NCBI GenBank assembly: GCA_001695595.3
Contig: MBPM02000010.1
Location: 992,001 to 1,056,000 of the forward strand
Origin: Plasmopara viticola
Lineage: Eukaryota; Oomycota; Peronosporomycetes; Peronosporales; Peronosporaceae
DNA length: 64,000 nucleotides
Direction of reading: 5' to 3'
Positions 8,749 to 61,359 of this stretch are shown here, in pieces (the first letter of the stretch is position 1; each line of letters opens with the position of its first letter). Below the pieces are notes generated by a model. That model saw only the letters and a program-made list of their open reading frames with translations, did no database searches and was not told the DNA's origin. The position numbers and the translations under genes are program-made.

Positions 8749-9070
8749 TTGTTTATCGAGTTGCATGATCGAGTTGGAGGTTTTGCGCACGAAGGATGAT
8801 TATTTAGTTGTGATCGTATGTTTACGTGTAGATGTCAATCTAGCGCGATCCCCGTCGCAGATGCGCGCTAGTAGCTAGCACAATTCCCGTCGCAGCTCGT
8901 GCACATTCTCTTTTTCTCGTGTTAAGCGAACCGATTTCCTTGGTTCCCTTCCTCATTTGGGAAAAGAAGCAACGGATTGAAAAGTGAGCGCCTATTGCGA
9001 AGGAGATTCGTATAATTCTTCCGGCGCAAGAGACGACGTAGTTCGGCCAAGATCAACTGCCGCAGCAAGC
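8749..9070 (+). promoter_or_regulatory. Leader/promoter region of family N copy 1
   Basis: Conserved at nucleotide level with the regions before the N genes at 29.66 and 60.57 kb: TTGTTTATCGAGTTGCAT, CCCCGTCGCAG, CATTCTCTTTTTCTCGTG and a CTTGGTTCCCTTYCTCATT pyrimidine-rich block about 30 bp before the start. The last block resembles the initiator-like CTCATTY element of oomycete promoters; that assignment is an inference. The GTCGCAG-containing segment is partly duplicated here (8,840-8,905). Confidence 0.4.
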
Positions 9071-9853
9071 ATGACGCCTTTTAGAACCGCCAAAGAAATT
9101 CGCGGCGTCATGAATGCGCTGAAGCTCGATGTAGTGGCGAGTTATTTCGACAAAGAAGACGAAGTCGACCCATACGTCGTTTGTGACAGAGTTTCTGTAA
9201 ATGCCTTCAATGAGTACGTCGGGGATGGCGAAGGACTGCGGATCGCGCTTCGTTTTCTCGCCTTTAATGATGGGCGTATTGGGATCGTAGACCTTCCAAC
9301 CAGTGTACATGAGAGTACAGCGGTAGAATTTACGAAAAAGTTCTTCCGTGCGGCAGGAAATGACGACAAGGTTGCAGGTCGTGGCTCGATGACTGCGAGA
9401 AGAGCTGCCAACCCGAACAAGGAGGCCGATGCGACATTCGGTCCGATGGGATCTACGCCTCTCCGAACACCGCCACCGGCACCTCGCATCATCGCTGATT
9501 GGGTGACACTGGCAGTGGAGGTTGGGAGATCTCAATCTTGGTCAAGTCTGACAGATGCTGCCAGATGGTGGTTCGGTTATGCTGGGATCCAGTATGTGTT
9601 GCTACTGAAAATCAGTGCCCCTGGCACTCAGATTCGATATGCTCTCTATGACAGTACGACCCGTCCGACTCCAATGGATAGACCAACAGCGAGTGGAAGA
9701 TTTCGACACAACGCTGCTGGAGCTGCTGTCAATGTCACCTTCGACATGCGCCGAATCTTATCAATCCCTGCAAGCCAAGCTCTTCGAACTGGTGTGAATG
9801 CCGCCGTTGTCGATCTACGTACCGTGATGAATGAAGTGATCGATAGCCTTTGA
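9071..9853 (+). CDS. PD-(D/E)XK nuclease-like domain protein, family N copy 1
   Basis: Open gene of 260 residues from the ATG at 9,071. In the 29.7 kb copy the protein starts 29 residues earlier, but here that ATG is GTG (8,984), so the downstream Met is the likely start. The N-terminal half contains DEVDPYVVCDRVSVNAFNEY and EGLRIALRFLA. The second half has NKEADATFGP, then VTLAVEVGRSQSW and DAARWWFGYAG. An Asp in KEAD and the Glu in VEVG, followed by SQS, fit the PD-(D/E)XK-type domain common in fungal and oomycete genomes (Uma2-like). The canonical Lys is not obvious. DNA binding or cleavage is inferred, not shown. No signal peptide or membrane segment. A segment around residues 75-105 varies between copies while both flanks are nearly fixed. 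Confidence 0.65.
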   Translation: MTPFRTAKEIRGVMNALKLDVVASYFDKEDEVDPYVVCDRVSVNAFNEYVGDGEGLRIALRFLAFNDGRIGIVDLPTSVHESTAVEFTKKFFRAAGNDDKVAGRGSMTARRAANPNKEADATFGPMGSTPLRTPPPAPRIIADWVTLAVEVGRSQSWSSLTDAARWWFGYAGIQYVLLLKISAPGTQIRYALYDSTTRPTPMDRPTASGRFRHNAAGAAVNVTFDMRRILSIPASQALRTGVNAAVVDLRTVMNEVIDSL

Positions 9854-10290
9854 TAGAAGATGCGTCGTGGTTTTACCGTTTACAATATACTCAGCTTTCT
9901 GTTATATGACTATATCGCTTCGACTGACCTTGGCACACGAATTTTGATGCCTTGAAGCGGAATCATTATGCATTATACACTTGACCATAAAGAGCAGTTG
10001 CGATACAACGAATGTGACGCAACGTGCATTGCATCGATGTGTTACTACTTTTGCTGTGTCACGTTGGGATGCATCTCCGTCAAAATGTCATTTGTATAGA
10101 TTGAAGTTATCTTCCACTATTGATACCTCCTCGACAATATCATTATAATGGATCACTTAAAGAGTCATCGAAAGTGACACCACATCTAATGACAATAGAC
10201 GAAAAATTCTGAGGCTAGTGAAGTCACTTGGTGATGATGTGCTGCATTGTACTAAGGGTAAATGGATTGCTGGTCGACCGAGTCCACGAG
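9854..10290. repeat. Conserved family N 3' region and GTCAC/GAGTCATC motif
   Basis: No gene. The first about 230 bp are conserved after N1, N4 (30.54 kb) and partly N10 (61.36 kb), and appear inverted at 59.88-60.06 kb. The motif with AGAGTCATCGAAAGTGACAC lies at about 10,158-10,180, followed by AATGACAATAGAC. Confidence 0.5.
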
Positions 10291-10317
10291 TTGAAGAACC
10301 TAGAGGCCTTTGGGTGA

Positions 10318-10540
10318 CGTCACGATCACACTGAGGATGAGTGCGCTTTATAAAGCCACGCAGTAGCTTCGTCTGCTTGTTTGGTCAATATCCGACCGCT
10401 ATTCTCCGTGAGGCGAAGCGACTCAACCGCGTGCTTGGTGTCCAGTGTTTCATTTTTTCACAGACGCTCATTTGCAATCTGGACTCGCCCCAGTAGCTCG
10501 AGCTTTTGTATATACCTCGATCTGACGTCGGTCCCCCCCA
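10318..10540 (-). pseudogene. Family Y fragment, copy 2
   Basis: Minus-strand relic with the family Y islands for the ATAW and THP regions, close to the better-kept copy at 31,079-31,327. It lies head to head with family Z. Frames are broken. Confidence 0.35.
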
Positions 10541-10553
10541 AATGTAATATCAA

Positions 10554-10835
10554 TTGAAACGTTCTTGTTACCAATTTTCGTCAACGTGTACAGCACTTTT
10601 AAACCTCATTTTTTATCAATGTGATTCCTGTGGTCGTAACGCTACACCAATATGCTCTCTAGTGGTAACACTCTTCCGTTCTAACGAGATCAAAGCCATG
10701 TTAGTGAGAATAACTTATTTCTTGAAGGAGACCATTGAAGAGGCGATAGCTTCATCGAGGAAGAGTCACTCTATTTTCAAGTGCTTAGGAGATTTTGCAA
10801 TGATCTTTCAAAGGTCCGCAGATTTCATGAGGTAA
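10554..10835 (+). pseudogene. Family Z fragment, copy 1
   Basis: Open for 93 codons. It contains NEIKAMLVRITYFLKETIEE and ASSRKSHSIFKCLGDFAMIF. The second motif is kept at 31.5 kb (plus), 51.5 kb (minus) and 61.6 kb (plus), so the frame was probably once coding. No domain recognised. Confidence 0.35.
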
Positions 10836-11049
10836 CCCGCAAGGCCTTTAGAGACCGCAAAGTAGTATACCACTAGAAGTATTAACACAAGTACTTGATT
10901 CAAACAGTCGCTAAAGTACAATGGTTGAGCTCGCATACAAGAATTGACCTAACTTGAACATGCAACGTGCACAATACTGAGTAGACAACCAATCGTTCCT
11001 TTGCAACGACTTACATATTTCGAAGCGCAGGTGTCACGCGCAGATATCC

Positions 11050-11345
11050 TGCATTTAACTCGTTCATCACCTTGTTTTGTTCTCAACAAAAGCTGCATAG
11101 ACGTCTGCTGTAGTGTCTAGAAGTATACCAAAGTAGGTTAAAACTATAGATCGAGGACGGCAGGCATACAAACTTTCAGTCGCATAGGGAGCCGAAGGAT
11201 CATCCAGAATAAGCACTGAAATTCCGTTGTTTTCATAACGGTTCTTTTGGTGCAGTGGTTTAAATACATCTGCTCCAAGTCGGTATCGAATCCCACCGTG
11301 GACGAAAGCTGACAGGTGATGCTATTTGGGGGGATCACAATGGGG
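11050..11345 (-). pseudogene. Macro-domain tail plus family Q fragment
   Basis: Minus strand: the Q segment (SVLILDDPSAPY, ESLYACRPR, VLTYFGILLDT) runs directly into ADVYAAFVENKTR, the end of the macro domain. In the 62 kb copy the residues before ADVYAAF are WTATLVIVCHN instead, so Q either replaced or was inserted between these parts. Decayed, with stops after the tail. Confidence 0.4.
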
Positions 11346-11801
11346 AGTCGAAAAGTTGATAGCTTGCGATAATTGCCGAAGGCACTGTCGTGAGGGAGTC
11401 GTTACAACACCTAGTCATAAGACTTCGGTATGCGAAGCCCCTACTAAGGGTAGACAACACCTTGGCGCAGCCCAATGCAAATTGGGAGAGACGGTAATAC
11501 TGGGTAACGGAAAGCTGCAAGGATCGCTAACTTGACAGTAGTCCCACCGAATCGGTATGTAACATGTGACGTAGATCGGGTTAATCCGTGACCTCAAACA
11601 GGCGCAATTAGCATATCGGCTACGACTAATTCCAGGAGTAAAAAACCCTTAAAAGACGAAAGGCCAAAAATGCCAAATTGTTCAAAAGGTGCTAAGGCCG
11701 GATTAACGAAAGGCCGAAAAAAGCAAGCTTTTTTGTGTTGAGCCCCTTTTTTCTTTGCAAAGGAGCTAAGAGGGTCATCTTCCAGCTAGAATAGGGCCCA
11801 A
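11345..11801 (+). repeat. 450-bp interspersed repeat, copy 1
   Basis: Starts at GAGTCGAAAAGTTGATAG and ends near AGCTAGAATAGG. A direct copy at 32,099-32,541 has the same flanks and is part of the 20-kb duplication. A third at 22,118-22,584 has different flanks and interrupts a family T gene, so this unit has moved. No terminal inverted repeats or open gene. The end contains AAGGCCG repeats and a CTTTTTT/AAAAAAG pair that could form a hairpin. Class unknown. Confidence 0.65.
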
Positions 11802-12816
11802 TCGATAACAAGTGTTGCCGTCCACTCCGCAGAGCGCATGCTGCGCTAGATTGCACACACTGCATGCCTCGCTGCCGTGGCCGTGGGCAAGCCCATTTGC
11901 CTGTGGAAAGGATGCCATAGCGACACAATTAAGACTTCCTGCTTGTACGCACTGTAGGACGGTCCTATACGTCTGTGAGAATCCGTTGGGACACACAGTG
12001 AATAAGACGGTCCACACCTGCATCAAAATCAGGAGTTGCACGAGCCTTCCCCATATATAGTTAAACATCTAAGGTTGACACAAAATCCCGCAGTCCTTGT
12101 TCAGCACGTCGAAAACGGCCGATGCTGTACCAGCGTGCGGGTCTTTTACGAACGAAGCAATTGAAGATGCTAGTCCATGAATTTTTGATTGCCAACAGCC
12201 TAAATCGTTCCCAGATCTCCACGAACAATCTGCACGCGAGCACGAAAGTGCACCAATTGCTCTGCAGAGCGCAAAAAGCTCTTTGTGTTTAAACATGCTG
12301 CCTCGTGTACCAGTTGACTCGATCCTGCATCGATCCATTGGACTGAAGCCACCTCAACCGGTTCAGCAATAGCGTCCGTGCTATTTTGTGACGACTGCTT
12401 TGCTCTGTTTGCTGCTCTGGGTCGAGGGCTTCATTCCATGTCCGGGTCCAAGTTCCGCTTCTCATCATCTTTCTCTTCCTCCTCTCCCTCTTCATCTTGT
12501 TCCTCCTGTTTCTCCTCTCCAGTCTCTTCCTCTTCTTCAACAACATGAAACTGATAAACGGGTGGCAAATTCTTCCAAGGTTTATCCAAAGCATTTCCTT
12601 CCACAATTTATCTTCCCTCAACACACTTCGCCACGAACCTTCAGCTAATAGCACCTCAAGAAGGGGCAGATCGAGCAGTAGGGACAGCCTTTGCAACAGC
12701 GTCTCTATGTTAAACACACGGATGCATGCTTTACGACAAGAGACTTCCTTTGAATTACGCGGACGCTTGGTCATTAGCGTATCGCAGGGCGTTAAGCTGG
12801 CGTGATTATACATCAC
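11802..12816 (-). pseudogene. Macro-domain protein with F-box-like N-terminal region, family M copy 1
   Basis: Read 12,816 to 11,802. The N-terminal part contains LLLDLPLLEVLLAEGSW and RSVLREDKLWKEM, which has an F-box-like look (weak). An acidic, Glu/Asp-rich stretch near 12.5 kb follows, then VQIVRGDLGTI (first strand of a macro domain), GKARATPDFDAGVDRLIHCV and, after further frameshifts, the NCVAMAS region. Macro domains bind ADP-ribose or remove it from proteins. The copy is broken by several frameshifts, and its end is cut off by the 450-bp repeat. Confidence 0.5.
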
Positions 12817-12895
12817 ATTCTCATCGCAAGGTGTCGCATGTCTTGTTCAAGTGAGGAGATAGCTTGTTAAAAAACCGACGTGATTGGTTAGAAAG

Positions 12896-12908
12896 AAGAG
12901 AATGAAAT
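12896..12908. repeat. Target-site duplication, left
   Basis: The 13-base sequence AAGAGAATGAAAT is found here and again at 13,229-13,241, flanking the SINE-like repeat exactly. Confidence 0.7.
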
Positions 12909-13228
12909 GTAATGTAATTTATTACGTTACCGCGTTGCCAAGTTATGCACGTGCTAGGCTCAGTCTGGCTAGTCCACGGCATAGAGTGGTGTCCGCATAC
13001 GTCGGGTCTCGTTCGGCGGGCAGTGCATCCAGCACCGAAGACGTGAGGGTCTTCCATTTTATTTAGATCTGACTTGGTAAGAGCCCAGGTGGCCTGGTGC
13101 TGGACACCGTCGCGTCGAGAGTGAGACTCGTTAGAGACCTGCAGATGCCCGAGAGCACCTGCCCGAAGCGCGCGAGCATTTAGCCCCCGTGCTTGGAAGC
13201 AGGGCGTCACCCCAACCTTTTCCGAGCT
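12909..13228 (-). mobile_element. SINE-like GC-rich 320-bp repeat, copy 1
   Basis: A GC-rich unit in AT-rich surroundings, flanked by a 13-base direct repeat. Read on the minus strand it begins CGGAAAAGGTTGGGGTGACG and ends in TACGTAATA/TTACAT repeats. The copy at 51,984-52,313 ends in repeated TACAA units, a typical SINE or LINE tail. No reverse transcriptase is present. Clear A and B boxes were not found, so it could instead be a truncated LINE end or a solo LTR. The copy at 33,636-33,955 shares its flanks through the 20-kb duplication. Confidence 0.65.
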
Positions 13229-13241
13229 AAGAGAATGAAAT
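13229..13241. repeat. Target-site duplication, right
   Basis: Identical to 12,896-12,908. Confidence 0.7.
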
Positions 13242-13442
13242 ACAGCGTAAAAAGTAGTCTTTGCACTAAATGACTCCAACTAGCCATCACTGTGACCCCC
13301 ATCTTAACATCGTCACTTTCTAACTCATCAATGTATTGTGGATTTTTTTTATCGTCACTATGCCGGGATCTCATTCACACCGCCAGCTGGGCATTCTTAG
13401 CGTCCATCACATATTTTAACGTCAGCGGTAGTCCAGGGGGCA

Positions 13443-13807
13443 CTGTTGATTCGGTGACACCGGCAGTGGAGGTTGGGATATCTCAATCTTGGGCAAGTCT
13501 GACAGATGCTGCCAGATGGTGGTTCGGTTATGCTAGGATCCAGTATGTGTTGCTACTGAAAACCAGTGTTCGTGGCAATCAGATTTGATATACTCGCTAT
13601 GACAGTACGACCTGTCCGACTTCAACACTAAGACCAAAAGCGAGCGGAACGTTTCGATACAACACTGATGGCGCCACTGTCAATGTCACCTTCGACATGC
13701 ACCGAATCTTGTCAATCCCTGCGAACCAAGGTGTACCAACTGGTGTAAATGCAACTGCCGTCGTCGATCGACGTACCGTGATTAATCGAGTGATCGGTAC
13801 CATTTGA
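13443..13807 (+). pseudogene. Family N 3' half, truncated, copy 2
   Basis: Starts abruptly at the VEVGISQSW region of the nuclease-like domain and runs to the normal C-terminus. There is an in-frame TGA after RGNQI at 13,586. The 5' half, with the KEAD motif, is absent. The copy at 34,170-34,533 is nearly identical and has the same truncation and stop, so both defects predate the 20-kb duplication. Confidence 0.7.
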
Positions 13808-14560
13808 TAGTAGATGCGTCGTGATCTTTATCTCTATAATTTACTGAGCTACCCATTGAATGACTGCATCGCTTTTAACGACCTTGGCATACGAATAATT
13901 GCCTCTGAGCAAAGCCATCATGTACTATCTACTTAGTTGTGTCACAAGAAGTGAGTCACACCGTGCAATCCATTACTTGCGATACTATTGTTGCTGAAAT
14001 CCGCTGCGCGGAAAGTGATGTCGGATATCACCATCGAACTTCCTATTTCAATTACCATCCCTAGTACTCCACTATTAGTAATATTATAGTGTAAAAATAA
14101 TAAAGTGTCCTTTCGGAATGATCATTAATCTCACTACTGATACCCACTCTTCTTCAGTGGCAGCATCAGATTGATGTGTCACTAGAAGTTCGTCAATGAA
14201 TAACTGGTAGTGACACCCAGATTGTTCCATTCAATGACAATAGACGGGAGTAACCGACGCTATCGAAATCATTCGGCGATGATGTACTATAACGTACTCA
14301 GGGCAAACGTATTACTGGTCGATCGAATCCACAAGTCGAATATCGAAAAGGGATGAATGGATAACGATAACAATGAGGATAAGTGCGCATGTATGACTTT
14401 AACGGTCACATAGTAGCTCCATCTGCTTGGTTGTGCAATGTCTGACCGCTGCTTTCCGTTAGGCGCAATGACTCACTCGCGTGCTTGTATCAATTTCCAC
14501 AAACGCTACCACCATGTAATTACCCTAATCTGACGTCTGTTTCCCCTTCAAGCTGGCAAT
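13808..14560. repeat. Intergenic repeat region with motif and decayed Y
   Basis: No intact gene. A diverged copy of the GTCAC motif lies at about 14,175-14,250 with an extra insertion. A strongly decayed minus-strand family Y relic spans roughly 14,330-14,540. Confidence 0.35.
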
Positions 14561-14561
14561 C

Positions 14562-14957
14562 GAAACGCTAAATATTAAACAGCCACGGTCAACGTGTCCG
14601 GCACTTCAACCTGACATTTTTATTAATGAATTACGTGTAGTCGTTACGGTCCACCAATTTGCAAGTAGTGGCAGCACTCTCCCTTTTTAACAAAATTAAC
14701 GCCATGTTAGTAAATGTAGATTTTGTACCATTAAAAAGGCGATCGTTTTTTGTCTAGATGGAGCTGTAGCAATGCCAAGCGCCTGCAATGATCTTGAAAA
14801 TGGCTGCAGATCCCGTGAGGTCGTCCTTAAGGCCTATGACCAAAATTGCCGTGATCTGTCAAGTGACAAGATCGCAATGTCACTTTTGACTATTATAACA
14901 CGGTTTGTATACGCAAAAAATGGGTGCTGTTTAAAAAGGTCTGTAGTACATATCTAG
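14562..14957 (+). pseudogene. Family Z relative, copy 2
   Basis: Nucleotide-level relative of 10,554-10,835. An open piece of 61 codons begins at 14,772. The better-kept residues, in a shifted frame, correspond to the AMILK...ADPVR region. Equivalent copies lie at 35,262-35,654 and, inverted, at 51,118-51,300. Confidence 0.3.
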
Positions 14958-15234
14958 ACAGCAGCCCTATTTTTGCGAGGGTTAGTTCATCAATACTTTA
15001 CTAAATCGTTGCATTACCCGATCGGGCTTTACTTTCAAATAAAAAGGATCGCATTACCAAAAGCATTTAAGATATTAAATTCATTGTGTTTGGACTACAT
15101 ACTAGCATAGATATGTACTTTCATCGCTGCCTCTAAGCGTGTCCAAGAATACTGTGGATGCTCTTATGTGCGAAACATGTGGCCGCTAGCGTATGAATGT
15201 TTTTCAATTCATTGTCATTCATACGCTTACGCTA

Positions 15235-15530
15235 AAAGGCTGAAAATCATTCCTGCAATTTTCTTTATTAACTTTTGTCGGCATATCTCGTTCTCCAAGA
15301 TCGATAGTGTCATCGTGTTCATGAATGCAATCGGTATCACTTCGAATAAAAGTCGATTGAGTATAATTCGTCACGATCCCAAACACGACCGGTCACTGCT
15401 CCACCTCCGATAGCACCTTATATCCCAGAACTTTTCAAGCCATTTCTTGCTTTATGTTTTTCTTCTTGGCCTCAACAACACCAACACGCTTAAATCCACG
15501 ACTAATGACAAATCTCTCACCAAAAAGTTC
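15235..15530 (-). pseudogene. Crinkler-type C-terminal domain relic, copy A
   Basis: Minus strand: FVISRGFKR, then KKKNIKQEMA, LGYKVLSEVE, VVFGIVTNYTQ and an Asp-rich end. This matches the C-terminal part of the CRN relic at 50.6-50.9 kb. In this copy it joins directly to the sequence that precedes the CRN N-terminus at 49.82 kb; about 770 bp with the N-terminal domain are missing. Several stops. Confidence 0.55.
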
Positions 15531-16501
15531 GAGACTTAAAGGAGCAACGAACAAAAAGAGACAGCCAATTTGATACCGTCCTCAAATCAATGATTCGGTT
15601 GACGTCATTTGTATAACCTTCGACTCAGATAGCGTTTTTTGACACCGAAACCTCCTGACAGCATTGGAACAATATGTCACTAAAAGAGTCATCGATGTGC
15701 CATTAATAGTGGAACCGATATTGCTACATCCAATGACAATAGGCGGGAGATTTTGTCGCTAGTGAAATCACATGCACATTGCAAGTGACGATTTGTAGTA
15801 ACACAAAAAATATTGTATCAATCAGAATTACTAGGCCAAATGGCATCGAAAACCTTCAGTTCAATGATGCCGTGTCGGATTAAAAGTTTGCACAGATACG
15901 ATCCCTTTATTCATTGCGCACCATTCCTTGTCGAATTTGGAAGCGCACTTTCTAACAATTACAATATATCGTCTGACACTAAAAATAAGGATCACTCTTG
16001 AACTCTTTGTGAAAAGTTCACGATGTTCGACTACTTTGATTAAGTGTTTGTAGGCTTCCGCAATGACGGCTAAGCTTTAGTAGTCAATGCTTTAAGCAAA
16101 CCCTCTCAGACTATCACATTCAAAAGATACGTAGCGAAATTGTTAATGAAAGACTGCATCTGGTAACGTTCTTTAAAACTGCGGAGGTACGAAATGTCTT
16201 GCTTTTGCTCGAATGATACCTTAGCAACTGCAAAAAAATCGACTTTTTTAAGATGTTCTTATTATTTGTCGTCATAGTGGGCTCGACCAAAATACGAGAG
16301 GTCGTTTTGTTTGCATATAACGGTCAGACCGCGATGTAATCATCTGCAATGAATGTATTAAAACTTCCATGCATCCCCCGCATTCCTCTTTGTTCTCACG
16401 CACACTGCAAACTTCCTTTCGACTATATACAAGGATCGCTTAAATACTTTACTAATCACACAACCTCCGGATTGACTTGTAAATCTGGTCAGTCCATTTT
16501 A

Positions 16502-17655: not shown

Positions 17656-17751
17656 CGGACTAGCTTACACTGCTTCTCATTCGATTTAGTTAACGAACAC
17701 ATTGTACAGGACTAGATTGGTATATTTCTTTATTCTAAAAATAGTTACCGA

Positions 17752-18022
17752 GGGTGGCTTGATGACCGCGAAAAGATCTGCCAACCCGAACAAGGAGGCC
17801 AATGCGACAATTGGACAGATGGGATCTTCGCCCAACCAAACACCGGCACCAGCACCTCGTACCCATGCAGATTGGGTGACATTGGCAGTGGGGGTCGGGA
17901 GATCTCAATCTTGGGCAAGTCTAAAAGATGTTGTCAGAATATGGTGCGATTATGCTGGGATCCGGTATGCGTTGCTATATAAAAACAGTGCCCCTCGCAC
18001 TCAAATCCAACATGCTCTCTAA
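17752..18022 (+). pseudogene. Family N middle fragment, divergent subfamily, copy 3
   Basis: Encodes SANPNKEANATIGQMG, ADWVTLAVGVGRSQSWASL and AGIRYALLYKNSAP, then stops after QIQHAL. The key Glu of VEVG is Gly here. Both ends are missing. The 38.46-38.73 kb and 47.27-47.59 kb (inverted) copies belong to the same subfamily. Confidence 0.6.
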
Positions 18023-18111
18023 TTCGTTTGATATCACATTTGTGGAACAGACCCCAAATCTGACTCGCCCCCAGTAGCTCGAGCACAGCGTAATCACCTT
18101 GAGCTGTTTAC

Positions 18112-20450: not shown

Positions 20451-20454
20451 TCGG

Positions 20455-28196: not shown

Positions 28197-28325
28197 TGTT
28201 GCAATGCTTTCACTGTAGGTTAGTGACACAATGACAGTTCTACTTTTAGTTGAAAATAATAATTATATGTTAATTCTAGGGGTGGTAGTAGATTTCGGTG
28301 AGTACATTAAAGACTGTGAGATCAC
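28197..28325 (+). repeat. Boundary repeat, copy 3 (junction of the two units)
   Basis: Contains GTTAGTGACACAATGACAG, an AATAAT run and CTAGGGGTGGTAGTAG. It sits at the junction between the two 20-kb units and abuts a minus-strand family N relic, exactly as at 5.5 kb. Confidence 0.65.
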
Positions 28326-28354
28326 GACGCATCGACTTCAAACGCTATCGATCA

Positions 28355-29188
28355 CTAGAATCATCACGGTACGTGAATCGACAACGGCGAGTGCATTTTC
28401 ACCAGTTGGGAGATGTTGGTTTGCAGGGATTAACAAGATTCGGCGCATGTCGAAGGTGACATTGACAGCAGATACAACAGCGTTGTGTTTGAAATATTTC
28501 GCTCGCTGTTGGATTTATCGTTGGAGTCGGACGGGTCGTACAATCATAGAGAGCATGTCGAGTCTGAGTACCAGGGACACTGATTTCGAACATCAACACA
28601 TACTGGATCCCATCATAACCGCACCACCACCTGGCAGCATCTCTCAAAGTTGCCCAAGATTGAAATGTCCCAACCTCCAAAGTCAGTATCACCCAATCAG
28701 CAATAGTGCGAGATGCCGCTGCCGGTGTTTGGTTGGGCGTAGATCCCACCGGACCAAATGTTGCATCGACCTCCTACTTCGGGTTGGCAGCTCTTTTCGC
28801 GGTAATCGAGCAACCACACACCTCGCGTCCATTTCCCGATGCAGCTCGGAACTCGTACATAATTTCTGCCGCCGTACTTTCATGCACTTTGGTTGGAAGG
28901 TCGACAATCAAGACTCGCCAATCATTGTGGTCGAGAAACCGAAGCGCAATCCACAGTCTCTCACCGTCTCCTACTTTTTGCCTGCATTAACGGAAACTCT
29001 GTCACAAACGACGTATGGGTCGACTTCGTCGTCTTTGTCGAAATAAATCGCTACTACATCGAGCTTCAGCGCACTCATGACGCCGCGAATTTCAGCGACG
29101 GTTTTTAAGGCGTCATGCTTACTGCGACAATCACGTCGTGTATTGCGCTGGAAAAACAATGTAGATCTTGGTCGCGGTGAGCGCTCAT
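28355..29188 (-). pseudogene. Family N, full-length but frameshifted, copy 7
   Basis: Read 29,188 to 28,355. The ATG (CAT at 29,186-29,188) and the MSAYC-like leader context are preserved. The first exon-like piece has EIRGVMSALKLDVVAIYFDK and DPYVVCDRVSV. The middle is shifted. The domain end reads DWVILTLEVGTFQSWATL and DAARWWCGYDGIQYVL, then QTRHALYD. Frame changes and substitutions inactivate it. It is head to head with N4 (29,661), with 470 bp between the two start codons. Confidence 0.65.
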
Positions 29189-29279
29189 TTTTCTCTATCT
29201 TGCCGAAATGGGAGAAGAAGCCGAGGAAAAGAATGGTTTTCTTCGTCCACTTAATGGTTTTGAGCTTACACTTTGAGAC

Positions 29280-29466
29280 AGGTTATGGGCGTGCTAGTCA
29301 ATTCCATTGCGTGGTTTGTAATGTGTGAAAACCAGCCGTACATGCACCCAACGTACTGGACCGCAACAATCGCCATCGTGTGCTTCGACGCAGACGTCTA
29401 TGCTACTTTTGCTGAAAGCAAAACAAGGGTGATGAAATGCAGAAATCGCTCAGTCACTGCAAATTA
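29280..29466 (+). pseudogene. Macro-domain C-terminal tail upstream of N4
   Basis: Encodes YMHPTYWTATIAIVCFDADV and ESKTRVMK and ends in SVTAN at 29,463, then TAA. Same arrangement as before N1 and N10. Upstream it joins at about 29,240 to the inverted leader of N7. Confidence 0.5.
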
Positions 29467-29660
29467 ATTGTTTATCGAGTTGCATAATCGAGTAGAGTCA
29501 ATTCTTGCAGAGTTTTGCGCACGGAGGATACTTTTTAGTTTGTATCGTATTTGCTGCGCAATCCCCGTCGCAGCTTGCGCGCATTCTCTTTTCTCGTGTT
29601 GAGCGGACCGGTGTCCTTGGTTCCCTTTCTCATTTGGGAAAAGAAACAACGGCTAGAAAA
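29467..29660 (+). promoter_or_regulatory. Leader/promoter region of N4
   Basis: Contains TTGTTTATCGAGTTGCAT, CCCCGTCGCAGC, CATTCTCTTTTCTCG and CCTTTCTCATTTGGG at 29,623-29,637, 25-40 bp before the ATG. Conserved at 8.95 and 60.48 kb. The CTCATT block is like oomycete initiator elements. The N reading frame is also open upstream from 29,505 without a stop, so an N-terminally extended product cannot be excluded. Confidence 0.4.
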
Positions 29661-30536
29661 ATGAGCGCCTACTGCGACGGAGATACGTATAGATATCCCA
29701 GCGCAAGACACGACGTGGTACGGCCAAGATTAACTGCCGCAGCAAGCATGACGCCTCTTAAGACCGCCGAAGAAATTCGCGGCGTCATGAATGCGCTAAA
29801 GCTCGATGAAGTAGCGAGTTATTTCGACAAAGACGACGAAGTCGACCCATACGTCGTTTGTGACAAAGTTTCTGTAATTACCTTCAATGAGTACGTCGGG
29901 GATGGCGAAGGACTGCGGATCGCGCTTCGATTTCTCGCCCTTGATGATGGACATATCGTGATCGTAGACCTTCCAACATGTGTACATGAAAGTACTGCGG
30001 CAGAATTCACGAGCAAATTTCTCCGGGCGGCAAAAAATGAAGACGAGATCGCAAAACGTGGCTCGGTGACCGCGAGAAGAGCTGCCAACCCGAACAAGGA
30101 GGCCGATGCGACATTTGGTCCGAAGGGATCTACGCCTCTTCGAACACCGCCACCGGCACCTCGTACCATTTCTGATTGGTTGACACTGGCGGTGGAGGTT
30201 GGGAGATCTCAATCTTGGGTAAGTCTGACAGATGCTGCCAGATGGTGGTTCGGTTATGCTGGAATCCAGTATGTGTTGCTACTGAAAATCAGTGCCCCTG
30301 GGACTCAGATTCAATATGCTCTCTATGATTGTACGACCCGTCCTACCCCAACAATTCGACCAACAGCGAGTGGAAACTTTCGACACAACGCTGCTGGAGC
30401 TGTTGTCAATGTCACCTTCGACATGCGCCGAATCTTGTCTATCCCTGCCAACCAAGCTCTCCCAACTGGTATAAATGCAATCGCCGTTATCGATCTACGT
30501 GCCGTGATGAATCAAGTGATCCGTAGCCTTAGATAG
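29661..30536 (+). CDS. PD-(D/E)XK nuclease-like domain protein, family N copy 4 (reference copy)
   Basis: Open gene of 291 residues, the best-kept member. The ATG at 29,661 follows a conserved leader. The N-terminal region (about 1-30) is Ser/Arg-rich. Residues 30-110 form a conserved alpha/beta part (EIRGVMNALKLDEVASYF, FNEYVGDGEG, RFLALDD). Residues 110-135 are variable. The nuclease-like core spans about 138-225: Asp149 in NKEAD, Glu179 in LAVEVGRSQS, Gln184, and Lys209 after YVLLL. The tail has NVTFDMRRILSIPANQALPT. Family members elsewhere are predicted PD-(D/E)XK nucleases; catalysis here is inferred. No stop or frameshift, and most differences from N1 and N10 are conservative, which suggests recent function. 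Confidence 0.7.
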   Translation: MSAYCDGDTYRYPSARHDVVRPRLTAAASMTPLKTAEEIRGVMNALKLDEVASYFDKDDEVDPYVVCDKVSVITFNEYVGDGEGLRIALRFLALDDGHIVIVDLPTCVHESTAAEFTSKFLRAAKNEDEIAKRGSVTARRAANPNKEADATFGPKGSTPLRTPPPAPRTISDWLTLAVEVGRSQSWVSLTDAARWWFGYAGIQYVLLLKISAPGTQIQYALYDCTTRPTPTIRPTASGNFRHNAAGAVVNVTFDMRRILSIPANQALPTGINAIAVIDLRAVMNQVIRSLR

Positions 30537-34169: not shown

Positions 34170-34533
34170 TGTTGATTCGGTGACACTGGCAGTGGAGGTT
34201 GGGAGATCTCAATCTTGGGCAAGTCTGACAGATGCTGCCAGATGGTGGTTCGGTTATGCTGGGATCCAGTATGTGTTGCTACTGAAAACCAGTGTTCGTG
34301 GCAATCAGATTTGATATACTCGCTATGACAGTACGACCTGTCCGACTTCAACACTAAGACCAAAAGCGAGCGGAACGTTTCGATACAACACTGATGGCGC
34401 CACTGTCAATGTCACCTTCGACATGCACCGAATCTTGTCAATCCCTGCAAACCAAGCTCTACCAACTGGTGTAAATGCAACTGCCGTCGTCGATCGACGT
34501 ACCGTGATTAATCGAGTGATCGGTACCATTTGA
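34170..34533 (+). pseudogene. Family N 3' half, truncated, copy 5
   Basis: Counterpart of 13,443-13,807 with the same truncation and the same internal TGA. Here the core reads LAVEVGRSQSW and keeps the Glu. Confidence 0.7.
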
Positions 34534-38360: not shown

Positions 38361-38459
38361 TGCGGACTAGCTTACACTACTTCTCGTTCGATTTAGTTAA
38401 CGAACACATTGTACAGGACTAGCTTGGTGTATTTCTTTATTCTATAAATAGTTGCCGAG

Positions 38460-38729
38460 GGTGGCTCGATGACCGCGAAAAGAGCTGCCAACCCGAACAA
38501 GTAGACCAATGCGACATTTGGACAGATGGGATCTACGCCCAACCAAACACCGGCACCGGCACCTCGTATCCATGCAGATTGGGTGACGTTGGCAATAAGG
38601 GTCGGGGGATTTCAATCTTGGGCGAGTCTAAAAGATGATGTCAGAATATGGTGCGATTACGCTGGGATCCTGTATGCGTTGCTATATAAAATCAGTGCCC
38701 CTAGCACTCAAATCCAATATGCTCTCTAA
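38460..38729 (+). pseudogene. Family N middle fragment, divergent subfamily, copy 6
   Basis: Counterpart of 17,752-18,022. Stop codon in place of the Glu of KEAD, and VEVG changed to IRVG, so both putative catalytic positions are lost. Confidence 0.6.
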
Positions 38730-47185: not shown

Positions 47186-47270
47186 GATTACGAGGTGCTC
47201 GGGATACTGGGGCGAGTCACATTCGGGGTCTATTCCACAAATGTGATATCACACGATAATAAGAGCATAT

Positions 47271-47590
47271 TGGATTTGTGTGCCAGGGGCACTGATTTTA
47301 TATAGCAACGCATACCGGATCCCAGCATAATATCACCATATTCTGACGGCATCTTTATAGACTTGCCCAAGGTTGAGACCTCCCAACCCCCAAAGCCAAT
47401 GTCACCCAATCTGCGTGGGTCCGAGGTGCCGGTACCAATATTTGGTTGGACGTGGATTCCATCGGATTAAATGTCGCATCGGCCTCTTTTTTGGGTTGGG
47501 CGTGGATGTCGTAGGACCAAATGTCGCATCGGCCTCCTTTTTGGGTTGGCAGCTCTTTTCGCGGTCACCGAGCCACCCTCGGCAACCAAA
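47271..47590 (-). pseudogene. Family N middle fragment, divergent subfamily, copy 9
   Basis: Inverted counterpart of 17.75-18.02 and 38.46-38.73 kb. It contains a local duplication of about 60 bp around the CATCGGCCTC segment (47,475-47,545), which repeats the KEADATF coding part. Confidence 0.55.
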
Positions 47591-53690: not shown

Positions 53691-53692
53691 TT

Positions 53693-54090: not shown

Positions 54091-55610
54091 TTTAGCGTGG
54101 CCTCGAGGTCGGCCGGGCTGGTTGTCGTCATATAAATAACTTAATAATTGCAGTGTTTTAGCGTTTCGATTTTTTCTGCAAGAAGAAGCCGATGAAATGC
54201 CCCAATACAAGCAAAGGTAGAAAAGAAACGCCACTATGACAAAGTTGATTTGCGATCACCTTTTGCAGTTTTTTGAGTGCATACTTGTACGACTGTCCCA
54301 CGCAGTTCAGACACCTTCTGCTGGGACGCGCGGCGGGTGTACCCGACTGTAATGCTCATAGGTAATATAGCTAAAAGAGTATATTTCCCATTCAAGAGCC
54401 TCAAAGGTCCGGGGTCACCTCAAAGAAAGTCTGGTCTAAGCAATAGGACCTGCCCTACGAGCAATTGTTTTCGGTGTCTGAGTAATCCCTTTCACTGCCT
54501 TGACTTTTTTTTATCGTTCAGCATTCTGCTCAAGCTGGTTTTTTTTAGCAGTCTGCTTCTCATCATCACTATCACAATAAGTACCTTTTTTATTTAAAAT
54601 ACTATTGTCGCGAGCTTTCTCTTCACGTTACATGTCAAAGCCTTTACTGTAGCGTGATTGTCTACTTTTCAAGTCATCGACTACTTTAACAAATGTACTA
54701 TTATCCGAAACATTACCACCAACATAACGGCAATTTCAAAAAATCGGCTTGACTCGCTGAATCAGTTCAAAATAAAGGTGTGGCGTAATCGTTGTCACCG
54801 GCAGTTTTGCCGGTAACGGCTTTTACGCACTATAAATAAAATATTCCTTAAATACATATGCATCAGTACTTGTCATAGGAGGCGATTATTCGGAAGACAA
54901 TTACAGGTGTTTCATAGAAACTGGTGACCAAGAGACCTTATGGGCTGAAAGTAATATAGGATGTGTAAGAACCAGATGATATAAAGAAGATGGAAAGCAT
55001 TTAGGGATGATAGCAGCAGATGGCTGAGGGTCACCAATCAGGCTGTAGCAAGAAAATAAGTCGTAAAATTTCTTCACTAAATATCACTTCTATATTTGCT
55101 TTAAGCGATTAACACTTCTCCTCTTCCACGACTCCACCTCGCCCGCGTCTAAGCCTCGTCCGACGGCCGACTTTAATCAGCTTCCTTCGCGACTGTGTTC
55201 GTATGCTTCGCTACGGCATTTTAAAAAAAAAGCCGTAAAGGTAAGGCTAAAACCTAATCCATCGGCGTCCTTTGACTGCTGAGGTCAGCCGCATTTCCAT
55301 AAAGAGTGCGTTATACGGCGGAGGTGCGACGAGTTCATCGCGTTTGACAGAATGGTCTCATCGACAACATCTGACATAAGTGTTAAGTCTTTTAAATTTT
55401 TCCATTCTCGATTCCGTGCGTCATGAACATACAGCGTAGATGCGACAACATAACCGTATAGCAACTCGCTTGTGCGTCAGTTGCAACCTTTTAAACTATC
55501 GTGTTAAGTGAACACTCAATGATATTTTAGTTTAAAATAGTAAACAATCACACAAACGAATTTGATTTACATATAACTTAGGCAGAAGTAATTAATAGGC
55601 ACCGGTAATA
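54091..55610. other. Unassigned 1.5-kb stretch
   Basis: No gene supported. A plus-strand open stretch of 106 codons (54,277-54,597) ends in a hydrophobic Leu/Ile/Phe run but has no conserved copy or motif. A CACCGGCAGTTTTGCCGGTAA near-palindrome is at 54,799-54,819, and a poly-A run is near 55,220. Confidence 0.25.
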
Positions 55611-55628
55611 GAGGAAATTTAAAGGGAA

Positions 55629-55775
55629 CGGTTAAACTGCCGGTACCCTTTTGGTAAACTGCCGGTACCCTTTGATTTAAGCCATTGAGATTATACTAAA
55701 TCCACCAATGGGAGTACTTTATCTCTGTTAATGAACACAGTGTTTTATCAACCAATAAAAAGAGAAAGCAATACA
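55629..55775. repeat. GGTACC-rich terminal repeat, copy 2
   Basis: Direct copy of 52,583-52,725, including both AAACTGCCGGTACC units. No partner inverted repeat was found nearby. Confidence 0.55.
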
Positions 55776-58130
55776 AGAATGTAAAATGGGTAACACAAAG
55801 TTAAATGTTGTCGCACGATTTGATATTACTAAATATTTTGACGAGTCAAGTGCTGTTTCGTAAGTGCATAATGCGAGATCCATGCAATCACCTGACAGCC
55901 ATTAACAATGATACAATCAGCAGAGTGCTGGTGGAATAAATCTCGAGCATCGGAAAATCAAAGATTAAAAACGGTGTAGGACGACATTTTTAAACGGCAC
56001 GTCAACATGGTAAAAATCAAACCGCTTTTTTAGATGATCTGAGAGGGCCTTTGATAGAGAAGGCAAGATGCAGCTCACACCATATTGCACGATATATGCA
56101 CAATCAGACGCTTACTCATTGTGGCAACTCACACAACAGTGTCGGCTAGAGCTAGTGTAGTTCATGACAGTGACATTAATCACCTTTTAACGGATAATAC
56201 CACATCACATATGGTTGATTTCGACAAACGAGACTTGCAAATAAATTACAGGCAAGACTTCGTTGCGGCAAATTCATGTTGCTAATTTGAGACGAAAGAT
56301 CAAGGAGGTGGAATATTGCGGGCAGTAAGTATTGTGGTTCTGACGCCGGTTGCCGGAGCTTATTAAGCACCCGACCAGACGATGACGTTACGTAGCACAT
56401 GGTTCACGTGACGATATACGAAGATGAGTTCAAATAAGGGATTGCAATACCACGCTATGTAACAAATCGTCAAAAAATGTTCAGGAATTGCATAGTACAG
56501 ACTTCAACCTTTATCAATTTTAGAGCCGAAAGATGCACGCTTGATCGGCTTTACCATATAAAGTGCGACCACTTTGACCGAATACTGCCATTTAAAAAAT
56601 TTGAAGTACTTGGTTCAATTTTTATGCCTGGCATATGGTAAAGACCGAAGACCTTTCCAATCATCTAGTTGTTTACCTTGTTGCACGACCATCCTGTCGT
56701 AAAAGTAGTATTGTGTGTTCCTCACGAGAAAGTAACAAATTAAAAACAAAATACCGAATTAAAAAAAATGGAAGCGGAGACTCTCAGTGCTTGCTTGGAG
56801 CAGATTTCGCTGGTACGTGACATGCTTATCGAAAACAATCAAGGTAAATTGAGATGTTTTACCTTGGAGCGACAAGTGTTTTGTGCTTATTGTGGTTCTT
56901 TCTTCAAAAATTTTATACTCCTTCCCGAGTAGGTGGAGCGTAGGTGGGACATCAGCATGTGAGATCAGCTTCCTTGTACGTCTGCTGCAGCCGTAAAATG
57001 TTATTTTATGGAGGATAGAAACATGTCATCGTGAAAGAAACGGCTTGGGTGTCGCTTCTGCTTTTGATTTATGCAACATCTGACTGGCAAATTAATGTAA
57101 TGGCATTTAAAGCGCTTTGCAAGTATCTCCAAATAAAAATATTATAAAGAGGAATGTTCATGACAACTATATAGCCGACTGAGAGAAATTAAAATCTCTC
57201 CATGATGCGATGAAAAGTATATGTTTTTATGTCCATGTCGGGATAAGCTCTCACGGTAACATTTGAAAGTTTCAATAGATTAATATTGATGTAACATCAG
57301 AACGGAATTCACCAAAAATCTGAAGACGTAAGTAGCTAAATCCTGTGCTAAGAAACAAAATTTCTGGACTCTCATCAGTATATATTCCAGTGTACAAACC
57401 GAGGTCAATCAAAGGCTTACTCAAAGAGGCACAGTCCATGCTTAAAAGACAAAATTTTAAACACACAAAAACGAATTATTATTAAGTTGCAATTGATCGC
57501 ACACATCGAACCCAGGAAGTTCGTGCATCTTTCTCTATGCTTCCTGTGGCGAAATACTGTGTAAGAGTGATATTTTTGTCAGGCTATTAGTAAGCCAAGG
57601 TTACATTCTGCAACAATTATTAAAAATCGTCCAGTTGCCCAACATTTTGAACTGATACCTAGTTAAGTCATGATAGCAAAGACTGATTCGTATCCTATAT
57701 GTTTAAAGGAAAATCTAGCAAATTCCTGAGCAGCCTTTACGTCCTACAAAAATACTTAGGCTATTGATCTGAATATTCACTATTTTTCCTTAAGCTTTTT
57801 GGCTATAAGTATTGTCTATAGAGTCTGTTATAGTGTCAATTGTATATATTGATTTTCATAGCATACAAACATTTTAGCAGGGCAATCTCTTCAAGACAAT
57901 GTTTGTTCTTGTTTGAAGAAGCGGTAAGAATGACTGGTCGACGCTAATATCATGGAAATATTAGACTACTGGTACATTTCTCATCACGACATTGACCCTT
58001 TACAATTACGATACAGCCAAATTTAATAATGCTTATCAATTTACACAATCTTTGCTTTAGCTCTCATCCGTGAGAAAAGTAGTCCATACCATTACAGTTT
58101 TTGCTTTGACTACAATTTTATCACTTGCTA
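55776..58130. other. Unassigned 2.3-kb stretch
   Basis: Single-copy within the window. Only short open pieces, for example 56,085-56,285 (plus) and 57,272-57,466 (minus), with no recognised domain. AT-rich. Confidence 0.25.
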
Positions 58131-58199
58131 GTATACAATGCTCACTGCAGAGTCTGCTTCATCGAATGGCATGGGAAAGAATAGACTTAGGTCTGCTAG

Positions 58200-58620
58200 T
58201 TGTTTCTCTTGTGACTGGGGCGAGTCTAAATTGCAAATGAGCGTCTGTGAGAAATTGAGACACTGGACACCAAGCACGCGATTGAGTCGTTTTACAACAC
58301 GAAGAGTTGCGGTCGGACATTACACAAAATAGCAGACGAAGCTACTGCGTGGCTTTATAAAGCGTACAAGCGCATTCATCCATAGAGTTACCGTGACGTC
58401 ACCCGAGAAGCCTTTTTAGATCTTCGACTTGTGGACTCGATCGACCAGCAATCTATTTGCCCTTATTACAATGTAGCACATCATCGCCAAGTGACTTCGC
58501 TGGCCGCGCGGTCGATTGTCATTAGATGTGGTGTCACTGTTGATGACTCAACAAGTGACACATTATTATGATGTTTTCGAGGAGGTTTATAAAGATGGAG
58601 GCCGCGCATTCGAAGTAAGG
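58200..58620 (+). pseudogene. Family Y, copy 9, with motif
   Basis: The Y blocks GACTGGGGCGAGTC, CAAATGAGCGTCTGTGA, GCAGACGAAGCTACTGCGTG and GACTCGATCGACC are collinear with 31.3-31.0 kb (inverted). Frames are broken. The GTCATTAGATGTGGTGTCAC motif follows at about 58,527. Confidence 0.4.
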
Positions 58621-58662
58621 TTAATTTCCTTTCGAGGCAAAAAATTCTGCTGGTGAAAGACT

Positions 58663-59529
58663 ACGTTCCTCCAATGAGTGTAGCTAAATACACACCATAG
58701 TTGCTTTGCACCGAAGAGCTTGGCAAAAAAATAGTATAGCTATGTGCTGGCGTGACATAAATGTTCCAAGAATGTGTAGGAGAACGGGATGCGATATTTG
58801 CCAATAATTTGTTGCAGTTCCGCGTCAATTGCGATACATGCCATCGACCACCGACATCAAGTGCCACGCCACAACGTATCGAGGCCTTACGAGCGTATGT
58901 CAAGCCGCAACTGTCCCGATACCGCCCGACACACATCGGCGTATTTGACCTCAGTATCACCACGAAAACCAGGTGTACGGCCGTTGTCGCAGTTGATCAC
59001 GCAATGACTTTCGCCCATGTTGTAAAGCAGGTCCTCGTCCAGGTCGCCTAATTTGAAACCCCGGCGTAACTAGCCCATTTGGTACGCAACCGTTTTCGCG
59101 ATACGGCGGCACAGCAGCTTCGCGGCACAGCAGCTTCCCGGTCTGTGCATGCCATGCACCTCCTATCACAGCAAACTATTGCAATCAGTAAACGTTGTGT
59201 AGATACAAGTGTAATAATACAACATACCATGAGCTGCTGAACCCATCGTGTCTTGATTTTGCGACTATAGGTTTGTTGTCGACTGGATCAATGAAGGTGG
59301 AATCGTATACTGGTGCATCGTTCATGACAGTGCGAGCAAGCTGACCGATTAGGGCTGGAGAGGACTTGACTCCAGCGGTCTTAAGCCGCATGAATTCGGA
59401 CAACAACTTGACGTATAGGTTGGAAATCCATTCAGATCGGTGTCGTCCTCTGCCAGTAACAGCCTTGAGGTTGACCCTCTTTCGCACTGATGGCACGACT
59501 ACTGATATCGACTTTGGATTCAAACCGCC
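58663..59529 (-). pseudogene. pogo-like DDE transposase relic
   Basis: Read 59,529 to 58,663. An open piece of 112 codons (59,185-59,523) contains RVNLKAVTGRGRHRSEWISN, EFMRLKTAGVKSSPALIGQL and IDPVDNKPIV, the helix-turn-helix region of oomycete CENP-B/pogo-type transposases. After stops, near 59,050-58,930, comes EDLLYNMGESHCVINCDNGR then TPGFRGDTEVKYADV, the start of the DDE domain with its first Asp region (family pattern ENxDETHF). The rest is shifted and incomplete. No terminal repeats were found. Confidence 0.6.
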
Positions 59530-59879
59530 ATATTAAACAAGTCTATTGCGCATCTTTCACCACCTTGTGGCATTGGTATGATTGGCCTGCCAATATCATT
59601 GGTTCAAGGAGACAACTCGACATACCTTGTAGTTTCCGCGAAAGTATGAGGGAAATTTGACGATCGCTCGAAGGACTAAGCCTTGTTTAACTTTCTGGTT
59701 TGCATCGGTAATCATCCATTTGATCACGGTGACCCGCAACGATATCGAAACGACCTCTTGAAGCTTGCGCTTGCGCTTGTTGACGATCTGATCGTATCAA
59801 AAGTGGAATGTATCTTCACGCTTTGCAAATGGCTTAATGACGCCTCTTGTACAAGTTTTAGACAATTATACTAGATAAT
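59530..59879. other. Spacer next to pogo relic
   Basis: A plus-strand open stretch of 63 codons (59,683-59,874) has no recognised motif. It may belong to the lost 5' side of the pogo-like element. Confidence 0.2.
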
Positions 59880-60062
59880 GAGGGTTGGTAGTGAAATTTA
59901 TTAAACATTGAAGAGGTGGAGATGCATCCCAACGTAACTCAGCAAAAGAAGTATCGGATCAATGCAATGCAAGTTCGTTGTAACACAGCTGCTGAATTTT
60001 GGAGGTCGTCCAAAGCTATGTGGTCATATAAGGGGTAGCTCAGTATGTTATAAACGGTAAGA
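59880..60062 (-). repeat. Inverted family N 3' region
   Basis: Reverse complement of the region that follows N1 (about 9,870-10,080) and N4, including GATGCATCCCAACGT. It joins the macro-domain tail at about 60,065. Confidence 0.5.
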
Positions 60063-60082
60063 TCACGAGCTTACACTTCGAG

Positions 60083-60290
60083 ACAGGACGTGGGCTTGCC
60101 AGTTGACTCGGCAGCGTAGGTTTGTGATGTGTGCAATCCAGCTGTACATGCACCTTACGTACTGGACCGCAACAATCGCCACCGTGTCCTTCGACGCGGA
60201 CGTCTATGCTACGTTTGTTAAAAGCAAGACATGGGTGATCAATAGGTTTAATGCAGAGAAGTTCCTTCACTTCGAAATCGCTCAGTTACT
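60083..60290 (+). pseudogene. Macro-domain C-terminal tail upstream of N10
   Basis: Contains MCAIQLYMHLTYWTATIATV, FDADVYATFVKSKTWVINRF and EKFLHFEI. Upstream, GLPVDSAA is readable in a shifted frame, corresponding to the STGHMGLP loop region of the macro domain. Confidence 0.5.
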
Positions 60291-60573
60291 TCAAAATTAT
60301 TGTTTATCGAGTTGCATAATAAAGTTGGGTCAATTCTTGCAGAGATTTTGCGCTGATAGTTTAGTCTTTATTGTATACTTTTTGACTTGGTCGTGTAGAT
60401 GTCAATCTAGCGCAATCTTCGTCGCAACTGCGCGCATTCTCTTTTCTCGTGTTGAGCGAATCGGTTTCCTTGGTTTCCTTTCTCATTCGGGAAAGAAACA
60501 ACGGATTGAGAACGGAGATTCTTCCAGCGCAAGATACGACGTGGCACGGCCAAGAGCAACTGCCGCAGCAAGC

Positions 60574-61359
60574 ATGACGTCTTTTAAAACCGCCAAAGAA
60601 ATTCGCGGCGTCATGAATGCGCTGAAGCTCGATGAAGTAGCGAGTTATTTCGACAAAGACGACGAAGTCGACCCATACGTCGTTTGTGACAGAGTTTCTG
60701 TACATGCCTTCAATGAGTACGTCGGGGATGGCGAAGGACTGCGGATCGCACTTCGATTTCTCGCCCTTGATGATGGGCGTCTCATGATATTCGATCTTCC
60801 AACCAAAGTGCATGAAAGTATTGCGCGGTCTTTCGAGAAGCTGTTCAATCGTGCATCAGGAAATGATCTTGAGGTTGCAAGTGGTGGCTCGATGACCGCG
60901 AGAAGAGCTGCCAACCCGAACAAGGAGGCCGATGCGACATTTGGTCCGAAGAGATCTACACCCCTCCGAACACCGCCACCGGCACCTCGCACCATCGCTG
61001 ATTGGGTGACACTGGCAGTGGAGGTTGGGAGATCTCAATCTTGGGCAAGTCTGACAGATGCTGCCAGATGGTGGTTCGGTTATGCTGGGATCCAGTATGT
61101 GTTGCTACTGAAAATCAGTGCCCCTGGCACTCAGATTCATTATGCTCTTTATGACAGTACGACCCGTCCGACTCCAATGGATAGACCAACAGCGAGTGGA
61201 ATATTTCGATACGACGCTGCTGGAGCTGCTGTCAATGTCACCTTCGACATGCGCCGAATCTTGTCAATCCCTGCAAACCAAGCTCTTCCAACTGGTGTGG
61301 ATGCAACCGCCGTTGTCGATCTACGTACCGTGATGATTGAAGTGATCAATAGCCTTTGA
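60574..61359 (+). CDS. PD-(D/E)XK nuclease-like domain protein, family N copy 10
   Basis: Open gene of 261 residues from the ATG at 60,574. The upstream ATG used by N4 has been deleted together with about 18 bases. The open frame extends upstream to 60,103 through the macro tail, so a macro-tail-nuclease fusion is formally possible. The core is intact: ANPNKEADATFGP, VTLAVEVGRSQSWASL, DAARWWFGYAGIQYVLLLKI. The variable segment reads FEKLFNRASGNDLEVASGG, very different from N1 and N4, while both sides are almost identical. It ends with TGA at 61,357. Confidence 0.65.
   Translation: MTSFKTAKEIRGVMNALKLDEVASYFDKDDEVDPYVVCDRVSVHAFNEYVGDGEGLRIALRFLALDDGRLMIFDLPTKVHESIARSFEKLFNRASGNDLEVASGGSMTARRAANPNKEADATFGPKRSTPLRTPPPAPRTIADWVTLAVEVGRSQSWASLTDAARWWFGYAGIQYVLLLKISAPGTQIHYALYDSTTRPTPMDRPTASGIFRYDAAGAAVNVTFDMRRILSIPANQALPTGVDATAVVDLRTVMIEVINSL

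Follow-up and report, generated by a model that had tools for sequence, protein, structure and literature searches.

Proteins of the Uma2/DUF820 type, which have a PD-(D/E)XK fold, form a large family in cyanobacteria whose role is called unsettled in passages of two papers (PMC2701414, PMC4102429), and a passage of the first describes the cyanobacterial family as a likely solo toxin found mostly in cassettes of paralogous genes. The stretch of DNA analyzed here, called the window, comprises 64,000 nucleotides of the oomycete Plasmopara viticola (C10:992001-1056000, in an assembly of 93 Mb) and carries copies of a gene family, family N, with a predicted fold of this type. A short island within these genes, encoding one helix and the turn after it, is exchanged between copies as a cassette; like islands are shared across species at the protein level, and three residue pairs within the island covary in charge. 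We consider it moderately probable that the island is a polymorphic protein-recognition surface on a Uma2-fold family, whose variants gene conversion carries between copies and long-term selection maintains.

Family N and Its Predicted Fold

The three copies reported as open in the preliminary description, here called the 9.0, 29.7, and 60.5 kb copies, were recovered as frames 8984-9853 (genome C10:1000987; conserved ATG at 9071), 29505-30536 (C10:1021661; ATG at 29661), and 60103-61359 (C10:1052523), all on the plus strand. In the last of these the matched part begins at 60523 and the conserved ATG lies near 60574, and the long frame has more ATGs upstream. As first described, a core with KEAD and VEVGRSQS is kept and the stretch after VHES is variable. 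This stretch is the island, 25 codons long (model residues 112-136), which lies on the plus strand at 9317-9391 (type A), 29994-30068 (type C), and 60820-60894 (type D) in the three copies. Assembly-wide, 12 open copies are found at C10:793-1097 kb and one at C8:948679; these counts are lower bounds, 134 of 142 candidates having been scored.

The AlphaFold model of family N (predicted local distance difference test, pLDDT, 88; predicted template modeling score, pTM, 0.84) has a helix at residues 107-124, and its best matches in a fold search of the PDB are Uma2/DUF820 entries, not an unrelated fold. On this model, family N is a Uma2/DUF820-type PD-(D/E)XK fold. E110 and D149 are invariant and E179 is present in at least 90% of 72 proteins, motifs I, II, and III being assigned by position in the fold. 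The PD-(D/E)XK catalytic Lys is absent from motif III (VEVG) and from the next helix, where A192/A193 are found (at least 90%); subfamily M, a relative described below, and the Uma2/zinc-finger proteins carry Lys at this place (alignment by eye). The earlier PD-(D/E)XK-like assignment therefore holds for the predicted fold and for E110/D149/E179, but not for the helix Lys. Migration of this Lys in other PD-(D/E)XK families is noted in a passage of PMC1913061, and the invariant K146 could replace it here.

The 27-bit cut-off of Uma2 (PF05685) was not reached by the open copies of the window: the 60.5 kb copy scored 15.4 and the other two gave no match. Matches to PF05685 at E <= 0.1 occur in 11 of 72 relatives, with a best E of 0.00041. 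Searches of PDB sequences with phmmer and with profiles returned nothing meaningful, an NCBIfam search returned no match, and profile-profile comparison between family N and the three canonical Uma2 proteins of this genome showed no link (probability 0.6%, E 0.098). Because this last comparison failed, the Uma2 link rests on the fold and on weak Pfam matches. The three canonical proteins (L042, L043, and L044, on C66 and C79) score 32-42 bits, above the cut-off, and carry a C2H2-like zinc finger near the C-terminus, which is below its own cut-off in two of them.

The Island as an Exchanged Cassette

The island consists of helix α1 and the following turn, after the invariant His109-Glu110. F116 and F120 are conserved, and the most variable positions are 114, 115, 117-119, 121, 122, 124, 127, 128, and 132. 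Among the 12 cluster copies, distances in the gene parts before and after the island correlate with each other (r 0.82, p 0.004); the correlations of island distances with these two parts are -0.03 (p 0.48) and 0.12 (p 0.26), respectively, and in the pairwise homoplasy index (PHI) test none of 5000 permutations was as extreme. The suggestion of a swappable specificity segment is thus borne out insofar as the island moves as a cassette; a role in specificity is what we infer.

Two recent duplicates, 857767 and 877118, are 95-100% alike in windows that begin 1.7 kb upstream and reach the first part of the frame, but 75% alike over the island, after which similarity recovers. Differences per base are 0.016 in frame bases 0-190, 0.191 in 190-420, 0.091 in 420-870, and 0.021 in 870-1110, and similarity falls once more, though less, at about bases 600-800. 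When the copies are sorted into island types (by eye), the 15 same-type pairs have proportions of synonymous differences (pS) of 0.00-0.18 in the island (0.27 in the single type B pair) and 0.09-0.34 in the backbone. Island pS is below that of the rest of the gene in 12 of them, as in 823285/1072828 (0.115 vs. 0.341). Island pS in the 51 different-type pairs is 0.31-0.76. Decayed copies carry types A, B, D, and one more (by eye), and could serve as island donors.

Island Types across Species

The search for relatives yielded 98 homologous proteins, and all those with a named organism come from oomycetes, including Aphanomyces and Thraustotheca; the best match, from Phytophthora lilii, is 80% identical. 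A wide profile search with subfamilies N and M gave 46 proteins, the named ones again all oomycete (7995 best candidates scored). No relative of family N was found in the viral contigs searched, a set from which records near this genome may be absent.

Comparison within species used 44 of the 98 homologues, hand-picked for having a species name. Identity in sliding windows is lowest at the island, both here and in the other species. Of 30 close pairs in this genome, 25 have islands less alike than their backbones; so do 22 of 25 within-species pairs of six other species with backbone identity of at least 0.88 (4 of the 22 differ by a single island residue, and the remaining three pairs have identical islands); P. 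nicotianae proteins come from several strains, and some within-species pairs may be alleles.

Between species, the relation can be reversed. Copy 968184 shares 24 of 25 island residues with P. lilii P0001 (backbone identity 0.84) and 23 of 25 with P. nicotianae P0028 (0.71), and the 29.7 kb copy shares 22 of 25 with P. fragariae P0018 (0.68). Grouping across species took in the 44 homologues and five further ones, and approximately unbiased (AU) tests were run on 47 of 62 rows, with Lagenidium, Aphanomyces, and Thraustotheca left out. The island data reject the 12 cluster copies as a single clade (p-AU 0.00075), which the backbone does not (p 0.66). Type D islands from several species form one group in the island tree, with a support of 84, which is not strong, and the backbone data reject type D as a single clade (p-AU 1.8e-10); the type D group was defined after inspection of the sequences, and one member, P0063, has an M-like C-terminal end that lowers its backbone identity. 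In the wider grouping, backbones fall mostly but not strictly by species: cluster copy 1096078 stands apart, and a clade of the 12 copies is neither rejected nor shown. Of all 1446 between-species pairs, 236 have islands more alike than their backbones, as would be expected if most pairs differ in island type. Three Lagenidium giganteum proteins (P0015, P0029, and P0035) fall within Phytophthora groups, perhaps through contamination or transfer.

The Uma2-like sister subfamily M (L032, L033), found in the same genomes, is about 27% identical to N. It has the same order of secondary structure and a hypervariable α1 after the homologous His, where its lowest-identity window lies (148 pairs) and its model has a helix at 112-128 (pLDDT 84, pTM 0.81). 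Unlike N, it keeps the Lys, lies scattered on other contigs, and has several copies with stops. In Plasmopara the two adjoin by locus tags: PHALS_08042/08043 place N and a more distant relative close together. N also lies beside more distant relatives at C57:363008-364966 (head to head, and clearly M) and at C8:948679-952476, and a two-gene unit of this kind may be ancestral. P0063, from Plasmopara, is possibly an N-M chimera or a gene-model error.

Charge Pairs

Three residue pairs of the island, 114/117, 119/128, and 122/127, alternate in charge. In 95 distinct islands, opposite and like charges number 58 and 1 at 119/128 (shuffle means 23.7 and 22.7), 54 and 0 at 114/117 (22.4 and 19.0), and 42 and 0 at 122/127 (18.0 and 12.5), so that opposite charges are 2.3-2.4 times as frequent as after shuffling, a level that 0 of 5000 shuffles reached for any pair. 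The same pairs are the top three couplings by mutual information with average product correction (MI-APC) in 95 proteins, among pairs at least three residues apart from residue 30 onward. They occur in 44 combinations, and in 25 representatives below 60% identity the opposite/like counts are 11/0 (119/128), 14/0 (114/117), and 6/0 (122/127); a few founder types therefore do not easily explain the pairing. Depending on island type, positions 119, 127, and 128 hold either acidic or basic residues, and the net charge of the island centers on 0. The occurrence of either charge at the same positions would favor a protein surface over a DNA-contacting one.

Selection and Alternative Explanations

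For the 12 cluster copies the ratio of nonsynonymous to synonymous change (dN/dS, NG86) is 0.38; the three copies of the window give 0.53, and adding the C8 copy to the cluster gives 0.36. Purifying selection acts on the whole gene, which is not near a ratio of 1. Among the 12 copies the ratio stays at or below 0.70 in every 20-codon window and is 0.37-0.68 in island windows, with pS and its nonsynonymous counterpart (pN) both raised. In the three-copy set, island windows range from 0.30 to 1.03, and values above 1 in some other windows rest on very few sites. The proposal of selection on the intact copies is thus upheld as regards purifying selection, but diversifying selection in the strict sense is not supported, island windows being below 1 in the 12-copy set. 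A simulation of neutral decay without insertions and deletions leaves each copy a chance of about 0.33 of an open frame at 5% divergence; for 12 open copies the product is 1.3e-6 (5%) or 2.6e-4 (3%), on a model without indels and with open copies preselected.

These observations can be drawn together as follows. Family N would be an oomycete branch of the Uma2-fold proteins, maintained as a multigene cluster, in which the first core helix, from His109-Glu110, retains F116/F120 while its other face and the turn exist in alternative, charge-matched versions. Gene conversion between paralogues would carry these versions as cassettes of about 75-230 bp into otherwise homogenized genes, and selection would retain several versions per genome, so that like versions persist across species and genera. 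Instead of DNA, the surface would bind a protein partner, which could be another copy of the like kind in a dimer or a cognate ligand. The protein's role would be one of recognition, for example in self/non-self discrimination or in defense against nucleic acid of foreign origin, and the nuclease fold would either do the acting or survive as a relic that binds. It is highly probable that a Uma2 fold, an exchanged helix, and shared types together describe the anatomy and evolution of the family. That α1 is a protein-recognition surface has about an even chance, and a self/non-self or defense role is a tentative suggestion.

Several points weigh against this explanation. A dN/dS above 1 was looked for in the 12-copy set and not found, the island being below 1. 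Distances in the 60 bases that precede the island show a weak correlation with island distances (r 0.25, p 0.036), and another variable patch, smaller in extent, lies at about residues 225-246, so that the island is the main but not the sole exchanged stretch; three of the 15 same-type pairs have islands no more alike than the rest. Sharing was compared at the protein level, and like islands may have arisen by convergence. The shuffles take related islands as independent, and the charge pairs may simply form salt bridges inside a single chain. Finally, Ala replaces the Lys expected of an active Uma2 nuclease.

The island might instead be a conversion cold spot, a short stretch of ancient paralogues homogenized everywhere else, whose variation is tolerated and unused. 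In line with this, the 12 copies have a raised pS in the island and a dN/dS there below 1, and the helix surface could be under loose constraint. However, the island itself is exchanged, as seen in 12 of 15 same-type pairs and in the lack of correlation with the flanks, its types are common to several species, its covariation is the strongest in the protein, and variability in subfamily M likewise peaks at this helix; a cold spot is thus unlikely. The conserved E, D, and E of a PD-(D/E)XK fold would suit a cassette in which α1 reads DNA, like the target segments of restriction or homing enzymes, and in which a swap alters the sequence cleaved. This proposal shares its cassette part with the recognition-surface explanation, and the likelihoods given here are not mutually exclusive; it is made distinctly unlikely by the missing catalytic Lys, by a net island charge of about 0, and by acidic or basic residues at 119, 127, and 128 according to type.

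If family N had been carried along by a mobile element and multiplied through transposition and segmental duplication, the repeat-rich cluster with its many fragments and duplications would be explained, but this has little probability given a dN/dS of 0.38, the improbability of 12 open copies under neutral decay, and the lack of common ends (pairwise homology extents differ among 10 of 12 open cluster copies, with 4 kb flanks). Slighter still is the chance of a secreted effector family diversified by host recognition. To our knowledge, many of the source species are plant pathogens and paralogue diversification is common in effector genes, but not all Aphanomyces and Thraustotheca, which also have the family, live on plants; moreover, a signal-like stretch is seen in 1 of 93 homologues, borderline in a crude hydropathy check, and RxLR and LFLA each occur in 1 of 98. 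Crinkler (CRN) effectors have an N-terminal LFLAK header; this class was considered and rejected, as no LFLAK occurs in the first 80 residues of the 98 homologues, some of them partial, the one LFLA being in P0038.

Organization of the Window and the Cluster

The preliminary description counted ten copies in the window. Family N DNA is present at all ten places, but only four copies are full-length or nearly so, and six are C-terminal fragments that together span query residues 130-290 only. The fourth longer copy is decayed and lies at 28299-29129 on the minus strand, head to head with the 29.7 kb copy. The 3' fragments lie at 5576-5890 (minus; residues 176-290, internal stops), 13433-13801 (plus; residues 167-289, internal stop), 17747-18079 (plus), 34174-34527 (plus; residues 172-289, internal stop), 38451-38729 (plus), and 47258-47560 (minus). 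Those at 17.7, 38.4, and 47.3 kb begin within the island, with unrelated DNA 5' of them, as do five more fragments in the cluster. A chimeric repeat in which N is joined, within the island, to unrelated DNA thus occurs at eight places in the 264 kb examined, those beyond the window's three being on C10 near 797.9, 818.0, 832.0, 978.2, and 991.6 kb.

Part of the ten-copy count is due to inverted blocks and to a direct duplication at 8912-46000 (outer ends approximate), whose two copies, the first from 8.9 kb and the second from 29.6 kb, are about 20.7 kb apart, with a spacing of about 19.1 kb from 23.9 kb onward. It pairs the family N places at 9.1, 13.4, and 17.8 kb with those at 29.7, 34.2, and 38.5 kb. 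Two open frames at 6223-7832 (plus), with one zinc finger as a Pfam hint (E 0.096), look like what we take to be remains of a BED-finger/hAT transposase.

The window sits inside a repeat-rich cluster of about 330 kb (C10:767-1097 kb). At C10:792-794, 856-859, 875-878, and 1020-1023 kb (the last being window 28299-30536), an open N copy is paired with a decayed one, which lies head to head with it about 220-530 bp upstream; in each of the four pairs it is the minus copy that is broken. The size of the cluster is close to that of Phytophthora sojae centromeres, given as 211-356 kb in a passage of PMC7082073, a likeness in size that raised the idea of a centromere.

Comparison with Known Systems

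Family N shares with Uma2/DUF820 proteins (PF05685, COG4636; PDB 1wdj, 3ot2, 6okh, and 9y1l) the fold over about residues 63-288, the core acidic positions, and the formation of paralogue groups. Unlike them, it falls below the Pfam cut-off, has Ala for the helix Lys, and carries an N-terminal extension before about residue 63. The cassette-exchanged α1 helix of N may be a further difference from bacterial Uma2 proteins. The solo-toxin view of the bacterial family fits a recognition or conflict role by analogy, and proves nothing for N.

No report of family N or of such a system was found among the top-ranked literature matches. Of two papers that match Uma2 together with oomycetes (PMC10575705, PMC8227670, respectively), one does so through a grant number and the other through a table row on Uma2 genes that the fungus Diversispora received from endobacteria; in 12 passages of PMC9997571 the terms nuclease, restriction, Uma2, and gene conversion do not occur.

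Through repeated exchange of the cassette and through charge changes that match, evolution has marked which surface of the Uma2 fold matters, and natural variants that differ in a 25-residue segment make the function directly testable. Family N is thereby a candidate recognition system for oomycetes; we know of no incompatibility phenotype for it. Fungal allorecognition (het) genes have long-kept variants, with variation confined to the recognition surface, and the same is proposed for N, with no homology claimed. In its fullest form, which we hold to be unlikely, the proposal would be an oomycete recognition locus with a three-pair electrostatic code on an exchangeable helix, pairing like with like or with a cognate partner, its types kept across species and genera by negative frequency-dependent selection. 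Such a code would resemble in its logic allorecognition or clustered immune-receptor systems, built here on a Uma2 fold.

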